Shown: positions 4,681 to 25,393 of the stretch, in pieces
Layout: every line of letters begins with the position of its first letter
How positions within the stretch are numbered: position 1 is the first letter of the stretch
DNA from: Mycolicibacter heraklionensis
GTDB taxonomy: Bacteria > Actinomycetota > Actinomycetes > Mycobacteriales > Mycobacteriaceae
Length of the DNA: 64,000 bases
Assembly (NCBI GenBank): GCA_001673575.1
Contig: LZME01000063.1
Location: 28,856-92,855 of the forward strand
Direction: 5' to 3'
Notes under the pieces: model-generated
What the model was told of the DNA's origin: nothing
Databases searched by the model: none
Seen by the model: the letters and a program-made list of their open reading frames with translations, nothing else
Program-made: the position numbers and the translations under genes

Positions 4681-5658
4681 GTGCGCGGTAACGAGCCCAC
4701 GCTGGGTCAGCTTGGAGAGTTTCCCATGATCGACCGGCTGGTGGCCGGGCGCCGTCAGCCCGGCACCACCCAGCTGGGTCCCGGGGACGATGCGGCGGTG
4801 GTGCGCTGCGCCGACGGCCGAGTTGCGGTATCCACCGACATGCTGGTCGAAGGCCGCCATTTCCGGCTGGATTGGTCGACCCCGCAGCAGGTCGGGCGCA
4901 AGGCGATCGCGCAGAACGCCGCCGATATCGAGGCGATGGGCGCGCGGCCCACCGCGTTCGTCGTCGGCTTCGGTGCCCCGGCGCACACCGTCGCCGCCGA
5001 TGCCGCCGCCCTGGCCGACGGGATGTGGGCCGAGGCGGAGCGTCTGGGTGCCGGTGTGGTCGGCGGCGATCTGGTCCAGGCCGACTGTTGGGTGGTGTCG
5101 GTTACGGTGCTGGGGGATCTGGCCGGCCGGGCCGCGGTGCTGCGGTCGGGGGCGCGGCCCGGGGCGACCCTGGCGGTGGCTGGCGAGCTGGGCCGCTCGG
5201 CGGCCGGGCTGCGGTTGTGGGCCGACGGCGTGGACTCAGCAGAATTCGCCGAACTCAGGCGTCGCCACCTGGTCCCGGAGCCGCCGTACGGGCAGGGCGC
5301 GGCGGCCGCCGACGCCGGCGCGCAGGCGATGACCGATGTCTCCGACGGCCTGATCGCCGATCTGGGGCACCTGGCGGCCGCGTCGCAGGTGACCTTGGAG
5401 GTGTCCACAGCGGCGCTGGCGGTCGATTATCGAGCCTTGGCTCCCGCGGCCGCTGCGGTGCGCGCCGATGCGTGGTCGTGGGTTCTGGGCGGGGGAGAAG
5501 ACCACGCTCTGGTCGCCGCGTTTCCCGGAGAGCTGCCGCCCGATTGGCGGGCCATCGGACAGGTGCTGCCCGGGCCGGCACGCGTGCTGGTCGACGGAGC
5601 GGTGTGGGACGGGGAGGCGGGCTGGCAGTCGTTCGATTCCAACGCCCCATTACGTTGA
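4681..5658 (+). CDS. thiL: Thiamine-monophosphate kinase
   Basis: Phosphorylates thiamine monophosphate to the active cofactor thiamine diphosphate. The GTG start at 4681 gives 325 residues. The glycine-rich GPGDDAAVV near residue 34 and the conserved stretches STDMLVEGRHF, IAQNAADIEAMGA and DVSDGLIADL are diagnostic. The frame is open further upstream, but homology to Rv2977c starts at GTG 4681. It is followed directly by ung (6-base gap), so the two are probably cotranscribed. Confidence 0.95.
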   Translation: MRGNEPTLGQLGEFPMIDRLVAGRRQPGTTQLGPGDDAAVVRCADGRVAVSTDMLVEGRHFRLDWSTPQQVGRKAIAQNAADIEAMGARPTAFVVGFGAPAHTVAADAAALADGMWAEAERLGAGVVGGDLVQADCWVVSVTVLGDLAGRAAVLRSGARPGATLAVAGELGRSAAGLRLWADGVDSAEFAELRRRHLVPEPPYGQGAAAADAGAQAMTDVSDGLIADLGHLAAASQVTLEVSTAALAVDYRALAPAAAAVRADAWSWVLGGGEDHALVAAFPGELPPDWRAIGQVLPGPARVLVDGAVWDGEAGWQSFDSNAPLR

Positions 5659-5664
5659 GACACC

Positions 5665-6345
5665 ATGACTGCTCGTCCACTTCCTGAACTTGTCGAAAGC
5701 GGTTGGGCCACGGCGCTGGCACCGGTGACCGATCACGTTGCCGCGCTGGGGCAGTTTCTGCGCGAGGAGACAACGGCCGGTCACGGCTATCTGCCCGAAG
5801 GGCAGAACATCTTGCGTGCCTTCACGTTTCCGTTCGACAACGTCAGGGTATTGATCGTCGGGCAGGACCCGTACCCAACGCCCGGCCACGCGGTAGGCCT
5901 GAGCTTCTCGGTCGCGCCGGATGTTCGGCCGCTGCCGCGCAGTCTGGAGAACATCTTCACCGAGTACACCGCGGATCTGGGCTATCCCAAGCCGTCCAAC
6001 GGCGATCTGTCCGCGTGGGCGCAGCGGGGTGTGCTGCTGCTCAACAGGGTGCTCACCGTGCGACCGGGCACGCCGGCGTCACATCGCGGCAAGGGCTGGG
6101 AGGCCGTCACCGAATGCGCGATCCGCGCGTTGGTGGCCCGCAGTCAGCCGATGGTGGCGATCCTGTGGGGACGCGACGCGGGGACGCTCAAGCCGATGCT
6201 GTCGGATCGCTGCGTCGCGATCGAATCACCGCACCCGTCGCCACTGTCGGCGTCACGCGGGTTCTTCGGATCGCGGCCGTTCAGCCGCGCCAACGAGTTG
6301 CTGGCGCAGATGGGAGCCGAGCCGATCGACTGGCGACTGGAGTAG
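5665..6345 (+). CDS. ung: Uracil-DNA glycosylase (family 1)
   Basis: Removes uracil from DNA to start base-excision repair, important in a GC-rich genome prone to cytosine deamination. The 226-residue protein carries the water-activating motif [17 protein letters not shown] from residue 66 (catalytic Asp 68) and the DNA-intercalation loop [12 protein letters not shown] from residue 190. It is placed between thiL and a convergent rpmB, as in other mycobacteria (Rv2976c). Confidence 0.97.
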
Positions 6346-6368
6346 CGCGGTTCAGCGGGTCGCGCACA

Positions 6369-6406
6369 TCGCCGAGCAGGGGACGGATGATCCCTGTGCT
6401 CGGCGA
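6369..6406. terminator. Bidirectional hairpin between ung and rpmB
   Basis: TCGCCGAGCA (6369-6378) pairs perfectly with TGCTCGGCGA (6397-6406), and GGGA/TCCC extends the stem inside. There is no U-tract on either side. It sits exactly between two convergent genes, so a shared terminator is the likely role. Confidence 0.75.
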
Positions 6407-6419
6407 GACGAGAGCGGAC

Positions 6420-6611
6420 TTAGCCGCGGACGACCTTGCCGGCCTTGATGCACGAGGTGCAGGCGTTCAGGCGCTGCTTGTTGCCGCCGGGACGCGCGGC
6501 GTGCACAACCTGAATGTTCGGGTCCCACCGACGGCTGGTCCGACGGTGCGAGTGGGATACCGACTTACCGAAGCCGGGGCCCTTTCCGCAGATATCGCAC
6601 ACGGCAGCCAT
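6420..6611 (-). CDS. rpmB: 50S ribosomal protein L28 (zinc-binding form)
   Basis: Large-subunit ribosomal protein of 63 residues starting [12 protein letters not shown]. Cysteines at 5, 8, 51 and 54 (CDIC ... CTSC) make the four-cysteine zinc site of the C+ type. ATG 6611 was chosen because a GAGGAG ribosome-binding site lies 8 bases upstream; an in-frame GTG nine bases earlier has worse spacing. It is divergent from the FakA-like gene and convergent with ung. Confidence 0.95.
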
Positions 6612-6804
6612 ATGTGACACTCCTCAAAACGTCTGCTTGAGGGCCAACGACCTCAGCGGGTGGCCCGACAACCTGATCAGGATACCCGCCCGGCGGGGCA
6701 ACCACCAAAACGCCCCATCGCGGCTGGACGGACGTGACCTGTGCTGTCGCCCGGAGTGATTAGGCTTGCGGCCACCGGAGGTGGCGGCAGGAAGGTGGGC
6801 GCAG

Positions 6805-8454
6805 GTGGGCAACCCCGATCGTCGGCTGGATGCGGCGACCTTGCGGGACTGGGCGCACACCGCCGTCGGTGACCTGATCACCCACACCGACGAGATCAAC
6901 CAGCTCAACGTCTTCCCGGTCGCCGATTCCGACACCGGAACAAACATGCTGTTCACCATGCGTTCGGCCCTGGCCGAAGCCAATACCGAGGCCGCCTCGG
7001 GCGAGGTGGGCCGGGTCGCGGCCGCCCTGTCATCCGGGGCGCTGCACGGTGCGCGCGGCAACTCCGGGGTGATCCTGTCGCAGATCCTGCGCGGCCTGGC
7101 CGATGTGACCGCAGCCGACACCGGCGTCAGCGTCATCGACTCCACCTTGCTCGGCGCCGGTCTGCGGCACGGGGTCGAGCTGGTGGTCACCTCGATGGGT
7201 GGCCGGGAGGTTCCGGGCACCATCGTGTCGGTGTTGCAGGCTGCCGCTGCGGCCGTCGAACGGTGCGCGGCCGGTGGAGCGGAGTTGGGCCCGGCGCTGG
7301 TGGCCGGCACCGACGCGGCTGCTCAGGCACTGGAGGCGACCACGGAGCAGCTCGACGTGCTCGCCGAGGCCGGGGTGGTCGACGCGGGCGGCCGCGGCCT
7401 GTTGGTGCTGCTCGATGCGCTGCGCTCCACGATCACCGGGCAGGCTCCCGTGCGGGCGGCCTACCAGCCCGCGCCGTGCCCGCGGCCGCCGGAGGCCGGC
7501 ACCGAGGCTCCGGCGCCGCAGTTCGAGGTCATGTACCTGCTTGGCGAGTGCAGTCCCGAAGACACCGATGCCCTGCGAGAGCGGCTGAATCAGCTCGGAG
7601 AATCTGTGGCCATCGCCACTTCGGGGGTGGTCGGCGGATATTCGGTGCACGTGCACACCGATGACGCCGGTGCCGCCGTCGAGGCGGGCCTGGCCTTCGG
7701 CCGGCCGCGGCGTATCCAGATCTCGGCCCTGGCCGGTGCCGCCGGCCCGTCCCCCGGCAGCTGGGCTCGGGAGCGTGCGGTGCTGGCCGTGGTCGACGGC
7801 GACGGCGCCGGAGCGCTGTTCGACTCCGAAGGTGCCTGCGTACTGCGGCCCGACCCGCACAGTGCCGAGCCGGTCATGATGGTCACCGCCCAGCAGTTGC
7901 TGCGGGCGGTGGTCGACACCGGCGCAGCGCAGGTGATGCTGCTGCCCAACGGCTATGTCGCCGCCGAAGAGCTGGTGGCGGGTTGTACCGCGGCCATCGG
8001 TTGGGGCATCGACGTGGTGCCGGTGCCGACCGGTTCGATGGTGCAGGGGCTGTCGGCGTTGGCGGTCCACGATCCGGGCCGGCCGGTGGTCGATGACGGT
8101 TACACCATGGCCCGGGCTGCCGGCAGCACCCGGCTCGGATCGGTGCGGGTCGCCACCGAACAGGCGCTGACCTGGGCCGGTTCCTGCCGGCCCGGTGACG
8201 GCCTGGGCATCGCCGGTGACGAAGTGCTGATCGTGGCCCGCAATGTCGGCGCCGCGGCGATCGGCCTGATCGACCTGCTGCTGGCGGCCGGGGGTGAACT
8301 GGTGACGGTGTTGCTCGGGGCGGGCATTGATGGGTTAGAAGAAGATGTCCTGGAGGTCTTGGCCCGGCACGTGCATGACCAGCACCCGGGAACCGAACTG
8401 GCGACCTACTTCACCGGGCACCGGGGGGACGCGCTGCTGATCGGGGTCGAGTAG
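6805..8454 (+). CDS. DAK2-domain (FakA/YloV-like) protein
   Basis: Homolog of the kinase subunit of bacterial fatty-acid kinase, which uses a DhaL/DAK2 domain to phosphorylate a fatty acid held by a DegV-type partner. The N-terminal motif FPVADSDTGTNM at about residues 37-48 is the magnesium/ATP site, and ALHGARGNSGVILSQ and DAGGRGLLVLLDAL follow. The C-terminal FakA-C part is complete, giving 549 residues from GTG 6805, which has a GGAAGG site upstream. An upstream TTG at 6766 is possible. In M. tuberculosis H37Rv the gene is annotated as two pieces (Rv2975c/Rv2974c). No DegV-type partner gene is visible here. recG follows after 2 bases. Confidence 0.88.
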   Translation: MGNPDRRLDAATLRDWAHTAVGDLITHTDEINQLNVFPVADSDTGTNMLFTMRSALAEANTEAASGEVGRVAAALSSGALHGARGNSGVILSQILRGLADVTAADTGVSVIDSTLLGAGLRHGVELVVTSMGGREVPGTIVSVLQAAAAAVERCAAGGAELGPALVAGTDAAAQALEATTEQLDVLAEAGVVDAGGRGLLVLLDALRSTITGQAPVRAAYQPAPCPRPPEAGTEAPAPQFEVMYLLGECSPEDTDALRERLNQLGESVAIATSGVVGGYSVHVHTDDAGAAVEAGLAFGRPRRIQISALAGAAGPSPGSWARERAVLAVVDGDGAGALFDSEGACVLRPDPHSAEPVMMVTAQQLLRAVVDTGAAQVMLLPNGYVAAEELVAGCTAAIGWGIDVVPVPTGSMVQGLSALAVHDPGRPVVDDGYTMARAAGSTRLGSVRVATEQALTWAGSCRPGDGLGIAGDEVLIVARNVGAAAIGLIDLLLAAGGELVTVLLGAGIDGLEEDVLEVLARHVHDQHPGTELATYFTGHRGDALLIGVE

Positions 8455-8456
8455 CG

Positions 8457-10685
8457 ATGGTCACCTCGGCCGATCGGCTGGATTTCATCGTCGGCTCCGA
8501 TGCCGCCGGCAAGCTCGACGAATGCTTCGGCATCCGCACCGTCGGAGACCTGTTGCGCCACTACCCGCGCAGCTATGTCGAAGGCACCGGGGTGCGCAGC
8601 GCGGCGGACAGCCGCCCGGAAGAAGGCGACCACATCACCATCGTCGACACCATTGGCTCGGCGGTGCTCAAAGACATGCAGCGGCGCAACGGAAAGTACC
8701 TCGCTGTCACCGTCGGTAGCGGCCGCAACAAGGTCAGTGCGACGTTCTTCAACCCCAAGGGCCTGCGCTGGCGGTTGACCCCCGGCACCCGGGTGATGTT
8801 GTCGGGTGAGGTCAAGCTGTTTCGGGGTGCGATCCAGCTCACCCATCCGGACTTCCTGGTACTCAAGGAAGCCGACGGCGGCGCCCACGATCGCAACTTC
8901 GGCAGCAGTTCGCTGCGCAACATCGCCGATGCATCGCAGAAGGTCAGCGGGCAGATCAACCAGGCGGACTTCGAGCGCAGCTGCTACCCGATCTACCCGG
9001 CGACCGCGAAACTGCAGAGCTGGGACATCTTCAACTGTGTGCGGCAGGTGCTCGACGTCCTCGATCCGGTTCCGGACCCGCTGCCGGCTGCGGTGCGCAC
9101 CGAACGGGATCTGCTCGGCGAAGACGAAGCGCTGCGTGCAATCCACCTGTCGGAGAACGCCGCCGAACGCGACCGCGCCCGGGCTCGGCTGGCCGTTGAC
9201 GAAGCGTTCGGTCTGCAGTGGGCGCTGGCGATGCGCAGAAACGGTGAACTGTCTGAATCCGGTCCACCGGCACCGCGCCGCGACGACGGGATGGTCGCAG
9301 AACTGTTGCGGCGGCTGCCGTTCGAGCTGACCACCGGACAACGCGAGGTGCTCGGCGTACTCGAAGGCGAACTGGCCGCCAGCCGTCCGATGAATCGGCT
9401 GCTGCAGGGCGAGGTCGGCTCGGGCAAGACGATCGTCGCGCTGCTGGCGATGCTGCAGCTGGTTGATGCCGGCTATCAGTGCGCCCTATTGGCACCCACC
9501 GAAGTCCTTGCTGCCCAACACGCCCGATCGATACGCGACATGCTCGGGCCACTGGCGCTCGGCGGTCAGCTGGGCGAGGCCGACAATGCCACCGCGGTGG
9601 CGCTGCTCACCGGCTCGATGTCCGCGGCCGCTAAGAAGCAGGCTCGCGCCGAGATCGCCAGCGGCCGGGCCGGCATCGTCGTTGGCACTCACGCCCTGCT
9701 GGTCGACGCGGTCGAATTCCACAACCTGGGCATGGTGGTCGTCGACGAACAACATCGATTCGGTGTCGAGCAGCGAGATCGGTTGCGCGCCAAAGCTCGT
9801 GACGCCATCACTCCGCATCTGCTGGTGATGACCGCCACTCCGATTCCGCGCACGGTGGCGCTCACCGTTTACGGTGATCTGGAGACCTCCACGTTGCGCG
9901 AGCTGCCCCGCGGCCGCCAGCCGATCGCGAGCTCGGTGATCTTCGTCAAGGAGAAGCCGACCTGGCTGGATCGGGCTTGGGCGCGGATCCGCGAGGAGGT
10001 GACGGCCGGACGGCAGGCCTACGTGGTGGCACCCCGCATCGACGAGACCGACGAGCCGAGCAAACCCGGTTCAGCCGATGAGGGCGGCCGAACCTCGGCC
10101 ACCGCGGTGGGGTTGTTCGACCAGCTGCGAGCCGGGCCGCTGTCGGGGTTGCGGCTGGGCTTGATGCACGGGCGGCTGACCGGGGACGAGAAAGACGCGG
10201 TGATGACGGCGTTCCGCAGCGGTGCGGTCGACGTGCTGGTCTGCACCACGGTCATCGAGGTCGGTGTCGACGTACCCAATGCCACCGTCATGCTGATCGC
10301 CGACGCCGACTGGTTCGGTATCAGTCAGCTGCACCAGCTTCGCGGCCGAATCGGCCGCGGCGCGCATGCCAGCCTCTGCCTGCTGGTGACCTCCAGCGGC
10401 GCTGGAACCAAGGCGGGGCAGCGCCTGAAGGCCGTCGCAGGCACCTTGGACGGATTCGCCTTGGCCGACCTGGACCTGGCCGAGCGTGGCGAAGGAGATG
10501 TGTTGGGCCGCAACCAGTCCGGCTGGCGAGGGGGCTTGAAGCTGTTGTCGCTGACCGACCACGGCGAAGTGATCGAGGCGGCCCGCACGTACTGCATGCA
10601 GGCCTGGGAAGCCAATCCGGATGATCCCGGATTGGCCTCGCTCGCCGCGCATTTCGCCGATATCGACTACCTGGACAAATCATGA
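8457..10685 (+). CDS. recG: ATP-dependent DNA helicase RecG
   Basis: Helicase that regresses stalled replication forks and migrates branched DNA. The 742-residue protein has an N-terminal wedge/OB domain, Walker A GEVGSGKT at about residues 318-325, a DEQH box near residue 431, MTATPIPRT, and the C-terminal helicase domain with QLRGRIGRG. It begins 2 bases after the FakA-like gene, and its stop overlaps the next start in ATGA, so all three are probably one operon. Confidence 0.96.
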   Translation: MVTSADRLDFIVGSDAAGKLDECFGIRTVGDLLRHYPRSYVEGTGVRSAADSRPEEGDHITIVDTIGSAVLKDMQRRNGKYLAVTVGSGRNKVSATFFNPKGLRWRLTPGTRVMLSGEVKLFRGAIQLTHPDFLVLKEADGGAHDRNFGSSSLRNIADASQKVSGQINQADFERSCYPIYPATAKLQSWDIFNCVRQVLDVLDPVPDPLPAAVRTERDLLGEDEALRAIHLSENAAERDRARARLAVDEAFGLQWALAMRRNGELSESGPPAPRRDDGMVAELLRRLPFELTTGQREVLGVLEGELAASRPMNRLLQGEVGSGKTIVALLAMLQLVDAGYQCALLAPTEVLAAQHARSIRDMLGPLALGGQLGEADNATAVALLTGSMSAAAKKQARAEIASGRAGIVVGTHALLVDAVEFHNLGMVVVDEQHRFGVEQRDRLRAKARDAITPHLLVMTATPIPRTVALTVYGDLETSTLRELPRGRQPIASSVIFVKEKPTWLDRAWARIREEVTAGRQAYVVAPRIDETDEPSKPGSADEGGRTSATAVGLFDQLRAGPLSGLRLGLMHGRLTGDEKDAVMTAFRSGAVDVLVCTTVIEVGVDVPNATVMLIADADWFGISQLHQLRGRIGRGAHASLCLLVTSSGAGTKAGQRLKAVAGTLDGFALADLDLAERGEGDVLGRNQSGWRGGLKLLSLTDHGEVIEAARTYCMQAWEANPDDPGLASLAAHFADIDYLDKS

Positions 10686-11395
10686 CCAGTCGTAAAACCC
10701 TGTTGTGGCTGGCCATGGCTGCGGTGCTGGCCGTAATCGTCGCCTATCAGACGGTGTCCGCGGCGAGCAGGAGCAGCCGTGCCCTGGGGGCGCAATCCGG
10801 GATGCCCACGGTGGCGGCCGGCACCGACGTGCTGGCCGGAATCACGGTGGTTCCGGCGCGCGCCCACCGCCACGACTACCGGCGCTCGGTGTTCGGCGAC
10901 GCCTGGGACGACGACAACGACGCACCTGGCGGTCACAACGGCTGCGACACCCGCAACGACATCCTCAACCGCGACCTCGTCGACATCACCCACGTGTCGA
11001 CCAAACGCTGCGCCGAGGCGGTGGCCAGCGGCATCCTGCACGACCCGTACACGAACGCCACCGTCGCGTTCACCCGCGGCGCCAAGATCGGCGAGGCCGT
11101 GCAGATCGACCACATCGTGCCGCTGGCCTATGCCTGGGACATGGGCGCGTCGGCCTGGCCGTATCGGCAGCGATTGCGCTTCGCCAACGACCCGGCCAAT
11201 CTGCTGGCGGTCGCGGGGAAGGGCAACCAGGACAAGGGCGATGCGGGTCCTGGGCAGTGGATGCCGCCGAATAAATCGTTCGCGTGCCAGTACGCCGTCG
11301 CCTACATTGCGGTTCTGCGGGGCTATGCGCTGCGCCTGGACCAGCCGTCAGCCGACGTGCTGCGTGCGGCAGCGGCCACCTGCCCGACCGGATAG
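10682..11395 (+). CDS. Membrane-anchored or secreted HNH-type nuclease-like protein
   Basis: 237 residues with an N-terminal hydrophobic segment (about residues 7-28), which is a signal peptide or anchor. The extracytoplasmic part carries GHNGCDTRNDIL, IDHIVPLAYAWDMGA near residues 142-155 and NLLAVAGKGNQDKGD, the pattern of HNH/DUF1524-type nucleases (Rv2972c family). Its substrate is not known. It overlaps recG by 4 bases (ATGA), although a secreted protein and a fork helicase have no obvious common job. Confidence 0.8.
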   Translation: MTSRKTLLWLAMAAVLAVIVAYQTVSAASRSSRALGAQSGMPTVAAGTDVLAGITVVPARAHRHDYRRSVFGDAWDDDNDAPGGHNGCDTRNDILNRDLVDITHVSTKRCAEAVASGILHDPYTNATVAFTRGAKIGEAVQIDHIVPLAYAWDMGASAWPYRQRLRFANDPANLLAVAGKGNQDKGDAGPGQWMPPNKSFACQYAVAYIAVLRGYALRLDQPSADVLRAAAATCPTG

Positions 11396-11403
11396 GGGAG
11401 CCG

Positions 11404-12000
11404 ATGCCAATCGACCACTGGCGTACCACGCCGACGTTGCCCGGCGAGCATGTGCTGTTGCGGCCGACGGTGCTGGCCGACGTCGGTGGACTGGCCCGGG
11501 CCTTCGACACCGAGTGCACCCGCTACTTCCTCTACGGCCAGCACTCCGAGCCGCCCACTGAAGCCTCGGTTTCCGCGGCGCTCGCGTCAGATCACCAGGT
11601 GCTGACTCAGGTCGAGGTCAGCACCGGCGAGATAGTCGGGACGACATCCCTCTACGACATGAGCGAGGTGGACCGACGGGTGACGGTCGGCAGCACCTGG
11701 CTGGCGCAGCGGGTCCGCGGGTCGGCGGTCAACTCCGAGTCGAAACTGCTGCTGCTCGACCACTGCTTCGGCGCCTTGGGCGCGGGCCGCGTGCAGTTCA
11801 ACGTCGACAACCTCAACGAGCGTTCGCAGCGCGCGGTGGGTGCCATCGGCGCCACCCGGGAAGGTGTACTGCGCAACCACGCCCGCCGCCGCGACGGCTC
11901 TTTTCGCAACACGATCGTCTTCTCGGTGATCGAGCAGGAGTGGCCGCAACTGCGAGCCCGGCTGGTGGAGCGGATCAACCGCCGGGTGTTGGCGAGCTGA
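11404..12000 (+). CDS. GNAT-family N-acetyltransferase (RimJ/RimL-like)
   Basis: 198 residues resembling the RimJ/RimL group that acetylates protein or small-molecule amines using acetyl-CoA. The beginning LLRPTVLADVGGLARAF and the distal stretch INVDNLNERSQRAVGAIGATREGVLRNH-like segment (about residues 138-160, where NERSQRA is the usual acetyl-CoA-proximal motif) fit the family. The ATG start at 11404 follows a GGGGAG site and lies 8 bases after the HNH gene. The substrate cannot be inferred. Confidence 0.83.
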   Translation: MPIDHWRTTPTLPGEHVLLRPTVLADVGGLARAFDTECTRYFLYGQHSEPPTEASVSAALASDHQVLTQVEVSTGEIVGTTSLYDMSEVDRRVTVGSTWLAQRVRGSAVNSESKLLLLDHCFGALGAGRVQFNVDNLNERSQRAVGAIGATREGVLRNHARRRDGSFRNTIVFSVIEQEWPQLRARLVERINRRVLAS

Positions 12001-12024
12001 GGCGAGTGAGCGGACCGGCGGGGA

Positions 12025-12864
12025 TCAGATACCGCTGTAGGTGAGCGGGTCTTCCCGCACCCGGGTGCCGTCGTTGAGACCGCCCAGGCTCTCCATGTGC
12101 TCGTCGGCCAGCTCGAAGCCGAACACGTCGAGGTTGGCCGCGATGCGCTCGGGCTGGGCCGATCGGGGGATCACCACGTTGCCCAGTTGCAGGCTCCATC
12201 GGATCAGCACCTGTGCCGGGGTCTTGCCGTATTCGCCGGCGATAGCCGTCACGGTCGGGTGGTCAAGCAACCGGCCCACCGCCAGCGGGCTGTAAGCCTG
12301 TGTGATGATGCCGCGCTCGGCGTTGGCGGCACGCAGCTCAGCCTGGTTGAGCAGCGGGTGCAGCTCGATCTGGTTGACCGACGGCGTCTCGAACGCCAGG
12401 TCGATCACGTCGTCGAGGTGTTCCGCGGTGAAGTTGCACACCCCGATGGACCGGGCCAGTCCCAGCTCCCGGGTCTGGATGAGTCCGCCGAAGCTGTCGA
12501 CGTACATGCCCAGAGACGGAGCCGGCCAGTGGACCAGGTACAGGTCCACGTAGTCCATTCCGAGCCGCTCAAGGCTGGCCTTGCAGGCTTCGATGGCGGC
12601 GGTCAGTCCCTGGTCGGCGTTGGCCAGCTTGGTGGTGACGAACACCTCCTCGCGCGGGATCCCCGACGCGGCGATAGCCCGGCCCACCGCGGCCTCGTTG
12701 CCGTACACCTTGGCGGTGTCGATCAAGCGACAGCCCAGCTCGAGCGCCGTCGAGACCGCACGCTCGGTCTCGGCTTCGGACAACTCGGCCACCCCGATGC
12801 CCAGAGTCGGCATCGTGCGGTCGTCGTTGAGGGTGACGGAGGGGATCGCAGTGCCCGACGTCAT
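12025..12864 (-). CDS. Aldo/keto reductase (first of a tandem pair)
   Basis: NADPH-dependent oxidoreductase with a TIM-barrel fold, 279 residues. The catalytic tetrad is present as Asp49 and Tyr54 ([11 protein letters not shown]), Lys79 (TTKLAN) and His112 (YLVHWPAP). The C-terminal cofactor-binding [10 protein letters not shown] is complete. The gene lies 1 base downstream of a second aldo/keto reductase on the same strand, and the two align without gaps through the catalytic region, which suggests a tandem duplication. It corresponds to Rv2971. The physiological substrate is unknown. Confidence 0.92.
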
Positions 12865-16251: not shown

Positions 16252-19200
16252 GTGATCTCCAAAGTGCTGGTGGCCAACCGCGGAGAGATCGCTGTCCGCG
16301 CGTTCCGGGCCGCCGTCGAGCTCGGTATCGGCACCGTGGCGGTCTACCCGTACGAGGACCGCAACTCGCTGCACCGGCTCAAGGCGGACGAGTCCTACCA
16401 GATCGGCGAAGAGGGTCATCCGGTACGCGCGTACCTGTCGGTCGATGAGATCGTCGGCACCGCAGTGCGATGCGGGGCCGACGCCGTCTACCCCGGCTAC
16501 GGTTTCCTTTCGGAGAATCCTCAACTGGCGCAGGCCTGTGCGGATGCGGGGATCACCTTCGTCGGTCCCAGCGCGGCAGTGCTGGCGCTGGCCGGCAACA
16601 AGTCTCGCGCGGTGGCCGCCGCGCGAGAGGCGGGACTGCCGGTGCTGGCATCGTCGGCGCCGTCGTCCTCGGTCACCGAACTGCTCGCCGCAGCCCAAGA
16701 CATGACGTTCCCGCTGTTCGTCAAGGCGGTCGCCGGTGGCGGTGGGCGCGGGATGCGCCGGGTCGCCGACATCGACGGGCTGGCCGATGCGGTCGAAGCG
16801 GCCAGTCGGGAAGCGGATTCGGCGTTCGGCGACCCGCACGTTTACCTCGAGCAGGCGGTACTGAACCCGCGCCACATCGAGGTGCAGATCCTGGCCGATA
16901 ACCACGGCAATGTGATCCACCTCTACGAGCGTGACTGCAGCGTGCAACGCCGGCATCAGAAAGTCGTCGAATTGGCGCCGGCGCCGAATCTCGATCCGGC
17001 TCTGCGCGAGAAGATCTGCGCGGATGCCGTGGCATTCGCGCGCCACATCGGCTACACCTGCGCGGGCACCGTGGAGTTCCTGGTCGACGAGCGCGGCCAT
17101 CACGTGTTCATCGAGATGAACCCGCGCATCCAGGTAGAGCACACCGTTACCGAGGAGATCACCGACGTCGACCTGGTGTCGTCGCAGCTGCGGATCGCTG
17201 CCGGGGAGTCGCTGGCGGACCTGGGCCTCTCGCAGGACTCGATTACGCTGCACGGGGCGGCGCTGCAATGCCGGATCACCACCGAAGACCCGGCCAACGG
17301 ATTCCGGCCCGATACCGGACGGATCAGCGCCTATCGCAGCCCGGGCGGGGCGGGCATCCGGCTGGATGGTGGCACCAATCTCGGTGCGGAGATCAGCGCG
17401 CACTTCGATTCGATGCTGGTCAAGTTGACCTGTCGCGGTAAGGATTTCCCCACCGCGGTGAAACGGGCGCGCCGGGCGATCGCGGAATTCCGCATCCGCG
17501 GGGTTGCCACCAACATCCCGTTTTTGCAGGCCGTGCTCGATGACCCGGACTTCTCCGCCGGGCGCATCACCACCTCGTTCATCGACGAGCGCCCGCAGCT
17601 GCTGACCGCGCGCTCGTCGGCCGACCGCGGCACCAAGATCTTGAACTACCTGGCGGATGTCACCGTCAACAGCCCGCACGGCACCAGGCCCTCGGCGGTG
17701 TACCCGCGCGACAAGCTGCCCGAGCTGGATCTGTCGGTGCCGCCGCCGGCGGGCTCCAAGCAACGGCTGGTCCAGCTGGGGCCGGAGGGCTTCGCCCGCT
17801 GGCTGCGGGAGTCGCGGGCGGTCGGGGTCACCGACACCACGTTCCGGGACGCCCACCAGTCGCTGTTGGCCACCCGGGTGCGCACCAGTGGGTTGGTCAA
17901 GGTGGCGCCGTACGTGGCTCACACCATGTCGCAACTGCTGTCGGTCGAGTGCTGGGGCGGCGCGACTTACGATGTGGCGCTGCGGTTTCTGAAGGAAGAC
18001 CCCTGGGAGCGGTTGGCCGCGCTGCGCGAGGCGTTGCCCAACATCTGTCTGCAGATGCTGCTGCGCGGGCGCAACACGGTCGGGTATACCCCGTATCCGG
18101 AACTGGTGACTTCGGCGTTCGTCCAAGAGGCGACCGAGACCGGTATTGACATTTTCCGGATATTCGACGCGCTCAACAACGTCGACTCGATGCTTCCGGC
18201 CATTGACGCGGTGCGCGAAACCGGCAGTGCGGTAGCCGAAGTCGCCATGTGTTACACCGGCGATCTGAGCAGTCCGGGTGAAACGCTCTACACGCTGGAC
18301 TACTACCTGCGGCTCGCCGAGCAGATCGTGAACGCCGGCGCGCACGTGCTGGCGATCAAAGACATGGCGGGCCTGTTGCGTCCCGCCGCGGCAACCACAT
18401 TGGTAAGCGCGCTGCGCAGCCGCTTCGACCTGCCCATCCACGTACACACCCACGACACCGCGGGCGGTCAGCTGGCCAGCTACGTCGCCGCCTGGCAAGC
18501 GGGGGCGGACGCCGTCGACGGCGCGGCCGCGCCCCTGGCGGGCACCACCAGCCAACCGGCACTGAGCTCGATCATCGCCGCGGCGGCGCAGACCGACTAC
18601 GACACCGGGATCTCGCTGGACGCGGTGGGCGACCTGGAGCCGTACTGGGAGGCGCTGCGAAAGGTGTACGCGCCGTTCGAATCCGGGCTGGCCGCACCGA
18701 CCGGGCGGGTATACCGCCATGAGATACCCGGTGGCCAGCTGTCCAACTTGCACCAGCAGGCCAAGGCGCTGGGGTTGGCGGACCGGTTCGAAGACGTCGA
18801 GAACAACTATGCCGCCGCGGATGCCGTCCTCGGTCGGCTGATCAAGGTGACCCCGAGCTCGAAGGTGGTCGGTGACCTCGCACTGGCGCTGGTCGGTGCC
18901 AACGTGAGCGCCGACGAGTTCGCCGCCGACCCGTCCCGAGTCGACATCCCGGACTCGGTGATCGGCTTCCTGCGCGGCGAGCTGGGCGACCCGGCCGGCG
19001 GCTGGCCGGAGCCGTTGCGGACCAAGGCACTGGAGGGGCGCGGCCCGGCACGGGAGATGCAACAGCTCTCGGCCGATGACGAGGCGGTGTTGGCAAAGTC
19101 TGGACCGCAACGCCAGGCCCGCCTCAACCGCCTGCTGTTCCCGGGTCCCACAAAGGAATTCGAGTCACATCGCGAACTCTACGGGGACATCTCGCGATTG

Positions 19201-19635
19201 TCGGCCAACCAGTTCTTCTACGGCCTGCGTCAAGGCGAGGAGCATCGGGTCAAGCTGGAGCGCGGGGTGGAGCTGCTGATCGGGCTCGAGGCCATCTCCG
19301 AGCCGGATGAACGCGGCATGCGAACCGTGATGTGCATCATCAACGGTCAACTGCGGCCGGTCGAGGTGCGTGATCGCAGCATCGCCAGCGAAGTGCCGGT
19401 TGCCGAAAAGGCCGACCGCACCAAGCCGGGCCATGTCGCCGCACCGTTTGCCGGTGTGGTCACCATCGGGGTGGCCGAGGGAGAGAAGGTCACCGCCGGA
19501 CAAACCCTGGCCACCATCGAGGCAATGAAGATGGAGGCGGCCATCACCGCGCCCGCCGACGGCACCGTCACGCGGGTGGCCGTTGCCGAGACCGCGCAGG
19601 TCGAAGGCGGAGACCTGCTGGTGGTGCTGAGCTGA
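16252..19635 (+). CDS. pca: Pyruvate carboxylase
   Basis: Biotin enzyme that carboxylates pyruvate to oxaloacetate, refilling the TCA cycle. The 1127-residue single chain has a biotin carboxylase domain ([16 protein letters not shown] at the N-terminus, [17 protein letters not shown]-grasp loop), a carboxyltransferase domain starting near [15 protein letters not shown] at about residue 528, and a C-terminal biotin carrier domain with EAMKME (biotinyl Lys at about residue 1093). All domains appear intact. GTG start; the next gene, rsmD, overlaps its stop. Confidence 0.97.
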
Positions 19636-20198
19636 CGCGCATCGTCGGGGGCGAAGCCGGTGGGCGACGCCTCGCCGTGCCGCCGCGCGGCACCCGGCCA
19701 ACCACAGATCGGGTGCGCGAGGCGCTGTTCAATGTGCTCGATTCCCGGATGGACCTGACCGGAATGTCGGTGTTGGACCTCTACGCGGGGTCGGGGGCGC
19801 TCGGCTTGGAGGCGTTGTCCCGCGGCGCCGCCTCGGCGCTGTTCGTCGAATCGGACCGCCGCGCCGCCGAGGTGTTGGCCGCCAACATTGCCGCACTGGG
19901 GCTGGCCGGAGCGGTGCTGCGCCGCGGCACGGTGGCCGCGGTGCTGGCCGGGGGCACCGAGACACCGGTGGATCTGGTGCTGGCCGATCCGCCCTACGAG
20001 GTCGACGCCGCCGCGATCGACGCGCTGCCGGGGTTGCTGACCGCCGGCGGTTGGGCGGGCCCGGGCACCGTCGTAGTGATCGAACGGGCCACCTCCAGCC
20101 CGGCGGTGGCGTGGCCGCAGGGCTGGGAAGCCTGGCCCTCGCGCCGTTACGGCGACACCCGACTGGAGCTGGCCGAACTGTCCGCACCTGACGTGTAG
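19632..20198 (+). CDS. rsmD: 16S rRNA (guanine-N2)-methyltransferase RsmD
   Basis: Methylates G966-type guanine in 16S rRNA using S-adenosylmethionine. The SAM site [20 protein letters not shown] and the catalytic DPPY motif near residue 118 are present. The family's N-terminal motif ([13 protein letters not shown]) lies upstream of the first GTG (19677), so the start is placed at CTG 19632, which overlaps the pca stop as CTGA and gives 188 residues. A start at GTG 19677 would delete the conserved motif. coaD follows 11 bases downstream. Confidence 0.88.
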
Positions 20199-20700: not shown

Positions 20701-21360
20701 TTACTGGGGCTGCCACCCCAAGCGGTGGTCGGTCGAGGCGCGCATCGCGGTGAAACCCCTGGTGCAGCCCAATATCCGTAGCGCCGCTTCGGCAATGGTC
20801 CACGGATAATCCGGCGGGCAGGAGCCGTCGTCGGAGCGGCGGTTGATCACCGCCTCCACCAGTCGGAACGACAGGTCGTCGGCATCGGCGGGGCCGTCAT
20901 GTTCGGCGATCACCGCGCGCGAAAGCTCTTGATAGTGACTGCGCAACTCGCTGCGGCGCCGGCGGAAGGCGGCGAAGCGCTCGAGGCGAAGCTCCGGAAG
21001 CAGATACAGCGTGCCCAGATTCCAGGCGCCGCCGCACAATTGCGCGGTATCGGCGACGACGAGCGCGTGCAACCGGGGGGCGCTGGGCCCTCCCTCGGCC
21101 AGCAGCTCGGCGGCCAGCTGGACGGAGGGATCGACGGTGCCGGCCAGCAGGGCGTCGAGAATGTCGTCCTTGGCGGCGAAGTGGTGATACAGCGAGGCCT
21201 GCCGAATCCCGACGCTCTCGGCGATGCGCCGGGTCGAGGTGGCGGCGTAGCCGACGGTGGTGAACAGCTCCGCCGCGGCGTCGAGGATCTCGTCGCGCGC
21301 GCTGCTGCCCGGCCTGCTGGAAGCCACCAGCCGGGGACGTCCTCGTCGATCGGTCTGCAC
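20701..21360 (-). CDS. amtR: TetR-family regulator, AmtR type
   Basis: 219-residue TetR repressor closely resembling corynebacterial AmtR, the nitrogen-control repressor. Shared features are the HTH region ILDAAAELFTTVGYAATSTRRIA then VGIRQASLYHHFAAKDDIL (about residues 25-67), and distally WNLGTLYLLPELRLERFA and INRRSDDG. GTG start at 21360. It is divergent from the DUF1989 genes with a palindromic operator between them, so it most likely represses that operon and possibly itself. In Corynebacterium the repressor is released by modified GlnK; whether the PII protein in this window does so here is untested. Confidence 0.82.
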   Translation of the reverse strand: MQTDRRGRPRLVASSRPGSSARDEILDAAAELFTTVGYAATSTRRIAESVGIRQASLYHHFAAKDDILDALLAGTVDPSVQLAAELLAEGGPSAPRLHALVVADTAQLCGGAWNLGTLYLLPELRLERFAAFRRRRSELRSHYQELSRAVIAEHDGPADADDLSFRLVEAVINRRSDDGSCPPDYPWTIAEAALRILGCTRGFTAMRASTDHRLGWQPQ

Positions 21361-21402
21361 GCCTTACTGCCTATCACGCGCTGAGGCCCGGCGCGCTAAA
21401 AA

Positions 21403-21419
21403 CTATCAGTTGATAGAAA
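21403..21419. promoter_or_regulatory. AmtR-type operator
   Basis: CTATCAGTTGATAGAAA matches the AmtR consensus CTAT-N6-ATAG followed by A-rich bases. The core CTATCA-gt-TGATAG is a perfect inverted repeat. It lies 19 bases before the ATG of the first DUF1989 gene and about 42 bases from the regulator's start, the position expected for repression of both. Confidence 0.8.
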
Positions 21420-21438
21420 ATGTGCTAGCTTCCTGATC

Positions 21439-22197
21439 ATGGACAACCCACGCACCGATTCCACCGACGGCGCACGCCTGCATGCGCGGGCTCAGGCGCA
21501 GCACGCGTCGATGCGCGTCCCGGCGGCCCCGGACGACGTCGACGCGGCGACGATGATCTGGGCCGAGTCGATCCCGGCGAACGCCTACGCCACCAAGGTG
21601 CTGGCCCGCGGCAGCCGGCTCCGACTGATCGATGTCGAGGGCGGCGCGTGTGCGAATCTGTTGCTGTATCGCGCCGAAGCGCCCTGGGAACGGCTCAACG
21701 TCGCCGACACCATGAAGGTCCCGTGGCAGGCCTACCTCGGTGCCGGCCATCCGCTGCTGTCCGATCAGGGCCGCGTGCTGGCCACCGTCGTCGCCGACTC
21801 CTCGGGACACCACGACATGCTCTGCGGCCCGGACGCCACCGGCCGACAACTGCTGCTGTTGGGTGCGATCAAGCACGGTATGGGCATTCGAGACGTGGCA
21901 CCGTCGGTGTCGCTGTTCCGCGGTGTTCGGGTCGATCCGGTCAGCGGCGCGCTGGAATTCACCGGATCCGCGGGACCCGGCGCGGCGATCGACCTGCTGA
22001 TCCACCTTCCGGTGATGCTGGTGGTCGCCAATGCCGCGCACCCGCTGGATCCCGACCCGCCCGCAACGGCATTGGACGTGGTTGCCTGGCGGGCCGGCGA
22101 GCAGTTGGCCGACCCGATCAGCCAGGACCCGGAATACCTACGCGCGGTGCAGAACACCGAGGCGGCCTGGGCCGCCGGAACGGGGGAGTGCTCATGA
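21439..22197 (+). CDS. cgdA: DUF1989 protein, carboxyguanidine deiminase subunit-like (UAAP1)
   Basis: 252 residues of the urea-carboxylase-associated (DUF1989) family. Paired members of this family (CgdA/CgdB) form carboxyguanidine deiminase in bacteria that use guanidine as nitrogen source. Conserved features are LLYRAEAPWERLNVADTMK, TVVADSSGHHDMLCG (likely metal-binding His/Cys) and SLFRGVRVDP. The stop overlaps the start of the second DUF1989 gene in ATGA, and an AmtR-type operator lies just upstream. Which DUF1989 gene corresponds to CgdA and which to CgdB is assigned from order and length only. Confidence 0.75.
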   Translation: MDNPRTDSTDGARLHARAQAQHASMRVPAAPDDVDAATMIWAESIPANAYATKVLARGSRLRLIDVEGGACANLLLYRAEAPWERLNVADTMKVPWQAYLGAGHPLLSDQGRVLATVVADSSGHHDMLCGPDATGRQLLLLGAIKHGMGIRDVAPSVSLFRGVRVDPVSGALEFTGSAGPGAAIDLLIHLPVMLVVANAAHPLDPDPPATALDVVAWRAGEQLADPISQDPEYLRAVQNTEAAWAAGTGECS

Positions 22198-22820
22198 CCC
22201 GCCCCTCTCAGCCCTCGCACATCGTCTCCGACGAAGTGGTGGCGGCCCGGGCGCCCTGGTCGGCAGTGGTGCGCGCCGGAGATCTGCTGCAGATCATCGA
22301 TCTGCACGGAAACCAGGCGGTGGACTGCCTGCTCTACGACGCCGCCGACCACACCCGCCGCTACAGCGCACAGGCCACCGTCGCTGCCGCGCGCAACATC
22401 TTCTTGAGCACCGGTTCGGTGCTGCGCAGCGCCGACGGCACCGCCCTCATGACCGTCGTCGCCGACGACGTCGGCAATCACGACACCATCGCCGGAGCCT
22501 GCTCGCAGGAATCGAACACCCTGCGCTACGGGCACCACACCGCCCACCAGCATGCCTGCGTGGAGAACTTCCTCGCCGAGGGTGCCCGGTGGGGCCTGGG
22601 CAAACGCGACATCGTCTCCAACATCAACTGGTTCATGAACGTCCCCGTCGAAGCCGACGGCACGCTGGGCATCGTCGACGGTCTCTCGGCCCCGGGCAAG
22701 AGCCTGACCCTGCGCGCGGAGATCGACACCCTGGTACTGGTGTCGAACTGCCCGCAGATCAACAACCCGTGCAACGGCTTTGACCCGACGCCGGTGCGGA
22801 TGGTGATCAGCCGAACATGA
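22194..22820 (+). CDS. cgdB: DUF1989 protein, carboxyguanidine deiminase subunit-like (UAAP2)
   Basis: 208 residues, paralogous to the upstream gene. It has the core motifs IIDLHGNQAVDCLLYDAAD, VVADDVGNHDTIAGACS, NINWFMNVPV and the C-terminal NPCNGFDPTPVR typical of UAAP2 proteins. The cysteines and histidines in these motifs are probable metal ligands. Overlaps of 4 bases at both ends (with UAAP1 and the carboxyltransferase gene) show a tightly coupled three-gene operon. Role in guanidine or urea nitrogen use follows from the family. Confidence 0.78.
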   Translation: MTRPSQPSHIVSDEVVAARAPWSAVVRAGDLLQIIDLHGNQAVDCLLYDAADHTRRYSAQATVAAARNIFLSTGSVLRSADGTALMTVVADDVGNHDTIAGACSQESNTLRYGHHTAHQHACVENFLAEGARWGLGKRDIVSNINWFMNVPVEADGTLGIVDGLSAPGKSLTLRAEIDTLVLVSNCPQINNPCNGFDPTPVRMVISRT

Positions 22821-24802
22821 TCGGCATCGAGGTGGTCTCGCCGGGCATGTTCACCACGGTGCAGGACTGGCCCGGGCGCGTCGGCTACTGGCATGTCGGG
22901 GTGCCGCCTTCCGGGCCGATGGACGACCTGTCGTTTCGGATCGGCAATCAGGTGCTGGGCAATCCCGAGAGTGCGGCCGGTCTGGAATGCACCAAAGGTG
23001 GACCCGCCCTGCGCTTTTCGGACCCGGCGTGGGTGTGCGTCACTGGTGCCGCGGTGCCGGTCAGGCTGGACGGTGCCTTAGTTCCACTGTGGCAGTCGGT
23101 TCGGATACCCGCCGGTGGACTGCTTGAGATCGGCGTCATTACAGGTCCGGGAATGCGCTGCTACGTCCTGATCGAGGGCGGCATCGCCGCGCCGCAATTC
23201 CTGGGCAGCGCAGCAACCTTCACTCAAGGTGTGTTCGGTGGTCACCACGGCCGGGCGCTGCGCGAATCCGATCGCCTCAGCGCCGTCGGCCGCGGCGGTG
23301 CCCCACCGACCCTCACCCGCGCCCCCAGCCAGATCCAGCCCAGCATCGGGCGGCACTGGGAACTCGCGGTGACCGAAGGCCCGCATGCGGCGCCGGAGTT
23401 CATGACTCGCGCCGACATGACCACCCTGACCACCACCGACTACACCGTGCACTTCAATTCCGACCGCACCGGCGTGCGGCTCGTCGGGCCGAAACCACGA
23501 TGGGCCCGCCCCGACGGCGGAGATGCCGGCCTACACCCGTCCAACATCCATGACACCGCGTACAGCATCGGTGCGCTGGACTTCACCGGTGACACCCCGA
23601 TCCTGCTCGGTCCCGACGGGCCCAGCCTCGGCGGATTCGTCTGCCCGGTGACGGTGGTACGCGGCGACCGATGGAAACTGGGCCAGTTGTCGCCCGGCGA
23701 CACCGTGCGGCTGGTGCCGATCCGCGCCGACCACGCCCCACCGCCGGCGGCGCTGGGTGTGCGACGGCGCGCGGCGTTGCCGGTCGTGGTCTCCCGCTCC
23801 GGCGACGGCGACGACGGAGTGCTGCAGCGCTACACCGGCCGCGACGGGACGGCCGTTACCCTCCGGCGCGCCGGTGACAATGGCGTTCTGCTCGAATACG
23901 GGCCGATGACACTGGATTTGGCGCTGCGGGCACGGGTACAGGTGCTCTACGACCAGCTCCGTGAACGGGGGCTGCCCGGCCTGACCGAACTGACTCCCGG
24001 GGTGCGATCGCTGCAGATCCAGTTCGACCCCGAGCAGTTCTCGTGCGCCGAGGTGATCGACGAGGTGGCCGCCATCGACGATGCGCTGCCGCCCTGCGAT
24101 GAACTGGTCGTGCCGAGCCGAGCGGTGCGGCTGCCGCTCAGCTGGGACGACCCCGGCACCCACGAGGCCATTCGCCGCTACATGTACGGGGTGCGGCCCG
24201 ACGCGCCGTGGTGCCCGTCCAACATCGAGTTCATCCGGCGTATCAACGGACTCGACGACATCACGCAGGTGTACGACATCGTGTTCGACGCGCACTACCT
24301 GGTGCTGGGCCTGGGCGACATCTACCTCGGCGCGCCGGTGGCCACCCCGCTGGATCCCAGACACCGGCTGGTGACCACCAAATACAACCCGGCCCGCACC
24401 TGGACCCCGGAGAACGCCGTCGGGATCGGCGGCGCCTACCTGTGCATCTACGGCATCGAGGGACCCGGCGGCTACCAGTTCGTCGGACGCACCACCCAAG
24501 TGTGGAACCACCGGCACGCCGCCGCCGGCCTGTTCGATCCCGAAACCCCGTGGCTGCTGCGCTACTTCGACCGCATCAGCTTCTATCCGGTGCAGGCCGA
24601 GGAGCTCCTGGAGCTGCGTGCCGACATGGCGGCCGGGCGTGGTCGGGTGGAGATCACCGACGGTGAGTTCTCACTGCCGGCCTACCGCCGATTCCTGGCC
24701 GACCACGCCGAGAGCATCGCAGGATTCCGCGACCAACAGGTCGCCGCGTTCACCGCGGAGCGCAATGCGTGGCACGATGCCGGCGAAATCGCCCGTGCTT
24801 AG
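22817..24802 (+). CDS. Urea/guanidine carboxylase, carboxyltransferase domains only
   Basis: 661 residues. The N-terminal third is a KipA/PxpC-type carboxyltransferase domain (VVSPGMFTTVQDWPGRVGYW, VPPSGPMDD), followed by a KipI/PxpB-type domain (LLEYGPMTLDLALRARV, LTELTPGVRSLQIQ). The end (VAAFTAERNAWHDAGEIARA) is where full-length urea carboxylases continue into their biotin carrier domain. A normal urea/guanidine carboxylase is about 1200 residues with a biotin carboxylase domain in front and a biotinyl domain behind; both are missing. No biotin carboxylase, carrier or allophanate hydrolase gene lies next to it. It may work with partner subunits encoded elsewhere, or be decaying. Confidence 0.85.
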   Translation: MIGIEVVSPGMFTTVQDWPGRVGYWHVGVPPSGPMDDLSFRIGNQVLGNPESAAGLECTKGGPALRFSDPAWVCVTGAAVPVRLDGALVPLWQSVRIPAGGLLEIGVITGPGMRCYVLIEGGIAAPQFLGSAATFTQGVFGGHHGRALRESDRLSAVGRGGAPPTLTRAPSQIQPSIGRHWELAVTEGPHAAPEFMTRADMTTLTTTDYTVHFNSDRTGVRLVGPKPRWARPDGGDAGLHPSNIHDTAYSIGALDFTGDTPILLGPDGPSLGGFVCPVTVVRGDRWKLGQLSPGDTVRLVPIRADHAPPPAALGVRRRAALPVVVSRSGDGDDGVLQRYTGRDGTAVTLRRAGDNGVLLEYGPMTLDLALRARVQVLYDQLRERGLPGLTELTPGVRSLQIQFDPEQFSCAEVIDEVAAIDDALPPCDELVVPSRAVRLPLSWDDPGTHEAIRRYMYGVRPDAPWCPSNIEFIRRINGLDDITQVYDIVFDAHYLVLGLGDIYLGAPVATPLDPRHRLVTTKYNPARTWTPENAVGIGGAYLCIYGIEGPGGYQFVGRTTQVWNHRHAAAGLFDPETPWLLRYFDRISFYPVQAEELLELRADMAAGRGRVEITDGEFSLPAYRRFLADHAESIAGFRDQQVAAFTAERNAWHDAGEIARA

Positions 24803-25353
24803 GCCAATTTCAGCGAATCGTCGCGGCACAACACGAAGAAGTAAGGCCGGGACGAGCCTCGCAGATCCATCGCGCCGATCACTGCGTCATCAGAGAGCCG
24901 GCGGAAGACATCGTTGACCGGTGCCTGGTCATAGACCATCGTGGCGCTGTCGACTCCGCGGTATCTCGTAGTGCGCAGCCGGGCCCGGGGCGAACGGGTC
25001 CGCAGCAGCGGCTGCAACGCGTTGATCTGCCCGAGGAATGAGCGGTTCTTCAGCGCCGGCAGCTTCGCGGCGAGTCCCAGAACACTGAACGCCAGCACCG
25101 GGTTGAACGCCCACAGCGCGGCCCCGTCACGGGTGGGAAACAACAGCGGGTGAACCGTCTCGGCATCGACGAACTGTTTGCCCCACCAGCCGGTGGCCCC
25201 CAACAGCCCGTCGAGCGGGTGGCCGGTCGGCAGCTCGGAACCATGCCAGGTGCCGACCATGAAATCGGGGTCGACTGCCTCGGCGGCGTCGAAGATCTCA
25301 CAGGCCTCGGCGGTGGTCGTTGGCACGTTCGCGAACAAGTCCTGGACAGCCAT
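24799..25353 (-). CDS. GXWXG/DUF4334 domain protein
   Basis: 184 residues from ATG 25353. The N-terminal motif GTWHGSELPTGHPLDG is the GXWXG domain, and the C-terminal half (MVYDQAPVNDVFRR ... YFFVLCRD) is DUF4334. The two usually occur together in actinobacterial proteins of unknown function. It is convergent with the carboxyltransferase gene and overlaps its end by 4 bases. No link to nitrogen metabolism is evident. Confidence 0.85.
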   Translation of the reverse strand: MAVQDLFANVPTTTAEACEIFDAAEAVDPDFMVGTWHGSELPTGHPLDGLLGATGWWGKQFVDAETVHPLLFPTRDGAALWAFNPVLAFSVLGLAAKLPALKNRSFLGQINALQPLLRTRSPRARLRTTRYRGVDSATMVYDQAPVNDVFRRLSDDAVIGAMDLRGSSRPYFFVLCRDDSLKLA

Positions 25354-25393
25354 GAGCAACACCGTACTTGACAGCCGTCAACTGCGGATCCGC

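Follow-up and report, generated by a model that had tools for sequence, protein, structure and literature searches.

In urea carboxylase, the carboxyltransferase (CT), biotin carboxylase (BC) and biotin carrier (BCCP) domains are tethered to one another, and its CT shares no homology with other CT types, as described in the accessible part of a study on BC evolution (PMC3199775). The same study mentions fused forms as well as homologues in which two genes encode the CT halves (PMC3199775), and the accessible text of a paper on fungal urea amidolyase makes no mention of a form reduced to the CT (PMC3073912). An active-site Asp marks guanidine carboxylases and an Asn urea carboxylases, according to the available portion of a review (PMC12186494). 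Here, we analyze a 64-kb stretch of contig LZME01000063.1 from Mycolicibacter heraklionensis (64,000 nucleotides, henceforth termed the window), which encodes a 661-residue protein consisting of a urea-carboxylase-type CT only, preceded by two DUF1989 genes (UAAP1 and UAAP2) and a divergent gene for the nitrogen regulator AmtR. No report of CT-only urea or guanidine carboxylases was found in the titles and abstract openings searched, a scope outside which most subscription papers fall. We propose that the protein is probably the β-like CT subunit of a guanidine carboxylase that borrows carboxybiotin from a shared AccA-type subunit, the best supported of the mechanisms considered.

A conserved carboxyltransferase without biotin domains

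The source genome is a 4.72-Mb draft of 161 contigs with a completeness rating of 100%. The CT-only protein matches the urea carboxylase profile TIGR02712 along positions 449-1111 (profile length 1201). Its score of 938.2 bits is short of the full-length cut-off of 1303.85 bits, as expected with the domains at both ends missing, and its best match among solved structures is the K. lactis urea carboxylase 3va7 (E 1.8e-154, residues 478-1130 of the 1236-residue chain). Both parts of a urea-carboxylase-type CT domain, CT_A_B and CT_C_D, are present, and family and profile searches found neither a BC nor a BCCP domain in the 661-residue chain. The initial annotation had described an overlapping DUF1989 pair followed by a CT-only protein that starts after the BC domain and stops before the carrier. 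This description stands: all three genes are intact and match their profiles, and each successive pair shares 4 bp. Likewise, no BC adjoins the operon, as had been noted, the nearest being a pyruvate carboxylase a few genes upstream. We take UAAP1 and UAAP2 to be the two DUF1989 proteins that form the carboxyguanidine deiminase CgdAB.

Two refuting explanations named at the outset, a frameshift or assembly gap and a stand-alone 5-oxoprolinase component, did not withstand examination. This arrangement of genes is seen again in 94 CT-only loci (the window and three duplicate pairs counted), and relatives with 60-96% CT identity show it in many independent assemblies, which excludes an artefact; tblastn found no urea-carboxylase-type BC beside the CT gene in any of the 94 loci. 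The protein misses the 5-oxoprolinase PxpB/PxpC equivalog cut-offs (112.2 against 500 bits for PxpC and 31.7 against 145.55 for its partner) and retains carboxylase-specific columns, which argues against a PxpBC part, and the source genome encodes a separate PxpB-PxpC-type pair on contig C128. In the assembly of M. heraklionensis Davo (L188, 8001-9907), the CT frame is broken; close relatives have it intact.

Position 255, which we infer to be the published specificity position, is Asp in all 59 CT-only rows of our alignment and Asn in K. lactis. Among 53 fused enzymes, it is Asp in those with UAAP2 nearby (44/44, henceforth D-type) and Asn in those without UAAP (9/9, N-type). Many relatives share the gene order permease, UAAP1, UAAP2, CT-only protein and allophanate hydrolase; at one such locus (L060), the first gene encodes an amino acid permease (PF13520) and the product of the last carries Amidase and AH_C domains. 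For comammox organisms, guanidine import through APC transporters is predicted in the available portion of the review (PMC12186494). The Asp marker, the UAAP pair and the amino-acid-permease gene in relatives strengthen the guanidine assignment, and with it the link to guanidine nitrogen use that the initial annotation had drawn. Both enzyme types co-occur in two genomes of one genus, G127 (L241) and G446 (L242), which carry, in addition to a CT-only D-type protein with UAAP, an N-type urea carboxylase in fused form that is accompanied by allophanate hydrolase but not by UAAP; the CT-only protein of G127 is identical to one of Nocardia carnea.

Judged by its conserved positions, the CT-only protein looks like a working guanidine-type CT. 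Among 192 columns that are invariant (98%) in the 53 fused enzymes, 164 are likewise conserved, with an identical residue in 98% or more of the 59 CT-only rows. We further added K. lactis to the fused enzymes and checked the invariant columns of this set against the source genome's PxpB and PxpC and E. coli YbgK. Of the 72 columns at which the carboxylases differ from PxpB/PxpC (carboxylase-specific columns), CT-only rows retain 67; they also retain 78 of the 91 columns shared with the Pxp proteins and 14 of the 17 at which these offer no residue, and no column in this comparison drops below 50%. Of 230 columns invariant in the 44 D-type fused enzymes, 192 are retained by the CT-only rows; as controls, random sets of nine D-type fused enzymes retain a mean of 204.7 (least 194), and the nine fused N-type enzymes, which carry BC and BCCP, retain 185. 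Against three relatives, dN/dS is 0.094, 0.11 and 0.196 for the CT gene and 0.255, 0.192 and 0.172 for UAAP1. Fused-invariant columns retained at 97% in CT-only operons number 33/52 for UAAP1 and 48/51 for UAAP2.

The linkage to AmtR, claimed from the beginning, is confirmed: the product of the divergent TetR-family gene matches the M. smegmatis AmtR structure 5e57 (E 4.9e-87, 294.5 bits) and the AmtR protein 5mqq (E 3e-34). The gap between amtR and UAAP1 contains CTATCAGTTGATAG, the sole occurrence of CTAT-N6-ATAG in the window (0.06 expected; present in 6 of 100 shuffles of the window), a pattern that we take to be the AmtR consensus. A guanidine riboswitch was not found, as no Rfam family matched above its gathering score between window positions 20000 and 27000; three matches in this region (E 0.33-0.61) lie far under their gathering scores, and none belongs to a guanidine family. 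In M. smegmatis, the annotated counterpart, comprising a permease, two unknown frames, a urea carboxylase and an amidase, is under AmtR and GlnR control, and no growth on urea was seen, according to the accessible part of the respective study (PMC4222082). A table of that study lists urea carboxylase for Nocardia farcinica and others, and biotin is named once in its main text, in a medium recipe (PMC4222082).

The coordinates of the operon and its surroundings are compiled in Table 1. The neighbors beyond the CT gene are a GXWXG protein and purU, as annotated initially. Both were rejected as operon members since they lie on the opposite strand and do not adjoin the CT gene in other CT-only groups. 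Several Mycolicibacter genomes have the GXWXG/DUF4334 gene next to the operon, whereas in others it was not found there, and no connection to the operon was seen. In several mycobacteria, a CHAD/CYTH gene, judged unrelated, is located 3' of the CT gene.

Table 1. Features of the CT-only operon and adjacent genes (positions in the window)
Feature	Position	Strand	Basis or remark
AmtR, TetR-family nitrogen regulator, divergent from operon	20701..21360	-	PDB 5e57 match and TetR_N
AmtR-type box CTAT-N6-ATAG between amtR and UAAP1	21403..21416	.	single match in 64-kb window
UAAP1 (DUF1989)	21439..22197	+	TIGR03425, 224.8 bits against cut-off 205.95; PF09347
UAAP2 (DUF1989)	22194..22820	+	TIGR03424, 332.4 bits against cut-off 284.7
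CT-only guanidine/urea carboxylase, 661 aa, CT_A_B then CT_C_D	22817..24802	+	PF02626, PF02682, TIGR02712, 3va7
Pyruvate carboxylase, few genes upstream of operon	16252-19635		contig C63
GXWXG/DUF4334 protein	24799-25362	opposite to operon	

Distribution and origin of the CT-only form

Judged from the genomes sampled, the CT-only form is old, characteristic at the family level, and wider than first noticed. In a genus sample, 36 of 98 genomes carry a full-span CT, which is CT-only in 25 and fused (BC-CT-BCCP) in 11; G008 additionally holds a fragment. From a species collection, we analyzed the best 80 of at least 584 loci encoding a relative. Among these 80, the nearest named relatives of the window's locus are Mycolicibacter species, the CT-only form occurs in Mycolicibacter, Mycobacterium, Nocardia, Skermania and Segniliparus, and fused enzymes occur in Micrococcaceae (Arthrobacter, Pseudarthrobacter, Paenarthrobacter and Sinomonas) and two mycobacteria. 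A class sample gave matches in 46 of 394 genomes: within the window's family, 13 of 15 genomes have a CT-only row, two of the 13 together with a fused row, and outside the family, BC coverage is seen in 30 of 31 genomes, the remaining one (G178) being CT-only. In a family sample, 264 of 401 genomes match and at least 90 rows reach from BC into CT. A further 174 genomes have no fused row among the matches listed, a number in which fused genes read as two pieces could hide, as two candidates were scored per genome.

A quick maximum-likelihood tree was built from 113 CT domains. In it, 59 CT-only rows cluster in a single clade (SH-aLRT 100) that sits inside the fused actinobacterial enzymes. The 113 domains were thinned from 165 loci (94 CT-only, L234 and 70 fused) by leaving out duplicates, the majority of Nocardia and Micrococcaceae rows, and three short or broken loci (L056, L177 and L188). 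Since a single CT-only clade is nested among fused enzymes, loss of both biotin domains would most simply be a single event. The gene context is equally uniform, with UAAP2 located 5' of the CT gene at a spacing of -1 to 500 bp in 93 of the 94 CT-only loci (three duplicate pairs counted); the exception, L163, begins at a contig end. A 60th CT-only row, L234 from G178, forms a separate long branch. At this locus (5599-12164, family f15), matches occur in the order permease, UAAP1, UAAP2, CT and allophanate hydrolase, and the CT has 48-52% identity, Asp216, and Met at position 255. L234 may have lost its biotin domains independently or may act on a different substrate.

The downstream steps vary among CT-only genomes. 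The best allophanate hydrolase match in the source genome scores 187.3 bits, under the cut-off of 511.05, and the hydrolase exceeds this cut-off in 13 of the 25 CT-only genus genomes. Within the stretches examined, it is present at 34/94 CT-only and 67/70 fused loci. Allophanate can decarboxylate to urea, and a urease alpha subunit is strongly matched in six of the 12 CT-only genus genomes without allophanate hydrolase (G004, G009, G018, G024, G043 and G053). In the other six, the window and its closest kin, the urease search gave no match (G000, G069 and G073) or sub-cut-off matches only (G016, G022 and G086). On one reading, urea arising from allophanate would be used by urease in the first six genomes and discarded in the window clade.

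Candidate sources of carboxybiotin

A search with PF02785 identified four BC proteins in the source genome, namely pyruvate carboxylase and three AccA-type proteins on contigs C23, C140 and C105. All three AccA-type proteins carry an AMKM motif, and two of their genes lie after an AccD-type gene; from sizes and neighbors, they are presumably AccA1, AccA2 and AccA3. A biotin/lipoyl-domain search recovered the same four proteins, a small free-standing carrier frame with an ESMKM motif outside the operon's contig (G000:C11:46353-46538, L259), and three further matches; the loci of these three showed no motif of the AMKM/SMKM type. The genome-wide check suggested by the initial annotation, covering unassigned BCs, free carriers and allophanate hydrolase, hence ends with no dedicated BC, one small carrier and a hydrolase under cut-off. 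We extended the BC comparison to 26 genomes, i.e., 24 CT-only (G070 being left out of the 25) and two fused-type. No urea-carboxylase-type BC with more than 52% identity to the BC of the fused enzyme was found in the 24 CT-only genus genomes. Their BC rows show 41-52% identity to it, like the AccA and Pyc rows of the two fused-enzyme genomes, and the orthologous BCs of these two genomes share 74%.

In mycobacteria, alpha subunits number three and beta subunits six (PMC4347857), and AccA3 is the alpha subunit common to three acyl-CoA carboxylases in M. tuberculosis (PMC11001197), both according to the accessible parts of these sources. Five further CT-only genomes (G483, G508, G577, G620 and G803) were typed by tblastn with the AccA proteins of the source genome, and AccA3 was found in all except G483. 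By this survey, AccA3 is the commonest candidate donor, with one genome against it unless the gene was missed.

In the mechanism that we favor, BC and BCCP would have been lost once in the ancestor of the Mycobacterium-Nocardia group, and an AccA-type alpha subunit (BC-BCCP), most likely AccA3, would supply carboxybiotin in trans, as it does for AccD beta subunits. The CT-only protein would pass CO2 to guanidine, the UAAP1/UAAP2 deiminase would convert carboxyguanidine to allophanate and ammonia, and allophanate hydrolase, if present, would free the remaining nitrogen. In the window clade, allophanate probably decays to urea, with one third of the nitrogens gained, and AmtR would adjust the operon to nitrogen supply. 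The missing domains, the conserved CT, the marker Asp, the operon, and the AmtR gene and box can be read directly from sequence, whereas catalysis, the identity of the donor and the fate of allophanate are what we infer. More tentatively, the scheme might extend to the entire family, in which a urea-carboxylase-type CT that is not homologous to AccD could dock to housekeeping AccA3. This subunit also serves the synthesis of fatty and mycolic acids, such that nitrogen catabolism and lipid synthesis would compete for it.

Several observations weigh against this proposal. CT-only rows do not retain 28 of the 192 fused-invariant columns at 98%, and Asp216, present in 59/59 CT-only versus 0/53 fused enzymes, is the clearest class-specific shift and indicates some change at this site. 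The nine Asn-type enzymes form one clade, so that the marker correlation does not represent nine independent events, and an exact AmtR box is found in only 22 of 260 loci and hence not universal. In G483 (L301, L290 and L306), a 99% complete, one-contig genome from the genus of Segniliparus G508, tblastn did not find AccA3 despite a CT-only operon and recovered an AccA2-type alpha subunit and pyruvate carboxylase; absence of AccA3 would be surprising in a mycolic-acid producer. AccA1 was also not found by tblastn in G508 and G483, nor AccA2 in G620, and G803 has a partial AccA2-like stretch. Due to the gaps in G483, G508 and G620, none of the alpha types was recovered from all of the genomes examined. 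In the accessible part of a pull-down study of mycobacterial AccA and AccD, no CT-only-type partner is reported, and the word urea is absent from its main text (PMC4347857). Docking to an AccA alpha subunit would moreover be new, given the tethered, non-homologous CT described in the accessible part of the BC-evolution study (PMC3199775).

Of the three options raised by the initial annotation, the borrowed biotinylated subunit fares best, whereas dedicated subunits elsewhere lose ground through the 41-52% identities of the available BCs and a different reaction through the retained carboxylase-specific columns. It is unlikely that the protein has switched to chemistry without biotin, e.g., by activating a guanidine- or lactam-like substrate with ATP in the manner of PxpBC. 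PxpB/PxpC homologues do work without biotin, Asp216 is also present at that place in the PxpC of the source genome and in L234, and the failure to find a dedicated BC in the source genome and 24 CT-only genomes would fit such a change. However, with 67 of the 72 columns that separate carboxylases from Pxp proteins retained and none lost, with column retention at least equal to that of the nine biotin-domain-bearing N-type enzymes, and with UAAP2 adjoining the CT gene in 93/94 loci, the protein still resembles a carboxylase component. A free small carrier that shuttles carboxybiotin from the BC domain of some AccA to the CT-only protein is quite unlikely as well: the source genome has a stand-alone ESMKM frame, but this lies on a contig other than the operon's, a BC domain would still have to be borrowed, and the frame presumably encodes a TB7.3-like protein that is general in mycobacteria.

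A simple two-gene split, with a dedicated and unrecognized BC-BCCP partner elsewhere in the genome, appears improbable. A highly divergent BC could escape detection in a draft assembly of 161 contigs, yet the genome is rated 100% complete, its BC search gave only three AccA-type proteins and pyruvate carboxylase, and no BC above 52% identity to the fused BC turned up in the 24 CT-only genomes. We regard it as very improbable that the window clade has a decaying or non-functional gene that persists through recent descent. Allophanate hydrolase and urease do not exceed their cut-offs in this clade, no permease match occurs within its examined stretch, and the CT frame of one relative (L188) is broken, all of which would suit decay, but the dN/dS values of the CT gene (0.094, 0.11 and 0.196), the retained conserved columns and the AmtR box in the window speak against it. 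Carboxybiotin transfer from a shared AccA-type subunit thus remains our preferred explanation.

Relation to known carboxylases

The domains that generate carboxybiotin are missing from genes across Mycobacterium, Nocardia and relatives that are likely annotated as urea carboxylase or urea amidolyase. This leaves two possibilities, namely a new form of subunit sharing that ties guanidine use to a shared AccA system, or the evolution of chemistry that dispenses with biotin. If AccA3 docking holds true, nitrogen catabolism and lipid synthesis would compete for one biotin subunit. If the AmtR-controlled "urea amidolyase" gene of M. smegmatis is of the Asp type, its substrate would be guanidine rather than urea, which may bear on the lack of growth on urea given in the accessible part of that study (PMC4222082).

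The guanidine carboxylase pathway (gca, cgdA/B and atzF), described for Vreelandella boliviensis in the available text of its report (PMC12508155), shares with the window operon a homologous CT, the upstream UAAP pair and the Asp marker, and with many of its relatives the downstream allophanate hydrolase. The window operon differs in that it lacks BC and BCCP and adjoins amtR, that no guanidine riboswitch was seen in the region searched, and that its source genome has no allophanate hydrolase over cut-off. Fused N-type urea carboxylases, represented by K. lactis and the second copy in the Nocardia-type genomes G127 and G446, also have a homologous CT, but carry BC, BCCP and the Asn marker, and the nine bacterial N-type loci lack the UAAP pair. 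The 5-oxoprolinase components PxpB/PxpC (KipI/KipA) belong to the same domain families, PF02682 and PF02626, but are separate proteins and differ from carboxylases at the 72 carboxylase-specific columns. Mycobacterial acyl-CoA carboxylases have a CT type that is non-homologous to the urea carboxylase CT (accessible part of PMC3199775), and no complex between them and a urea-carboxylase-type CT is described in the portions of the literature examined. Like the arrangement proposed here, however, they keep the CT subunit apart from the biotin polypeptide, with AccA3 common to several complexes (accessible part of PMC11001197).

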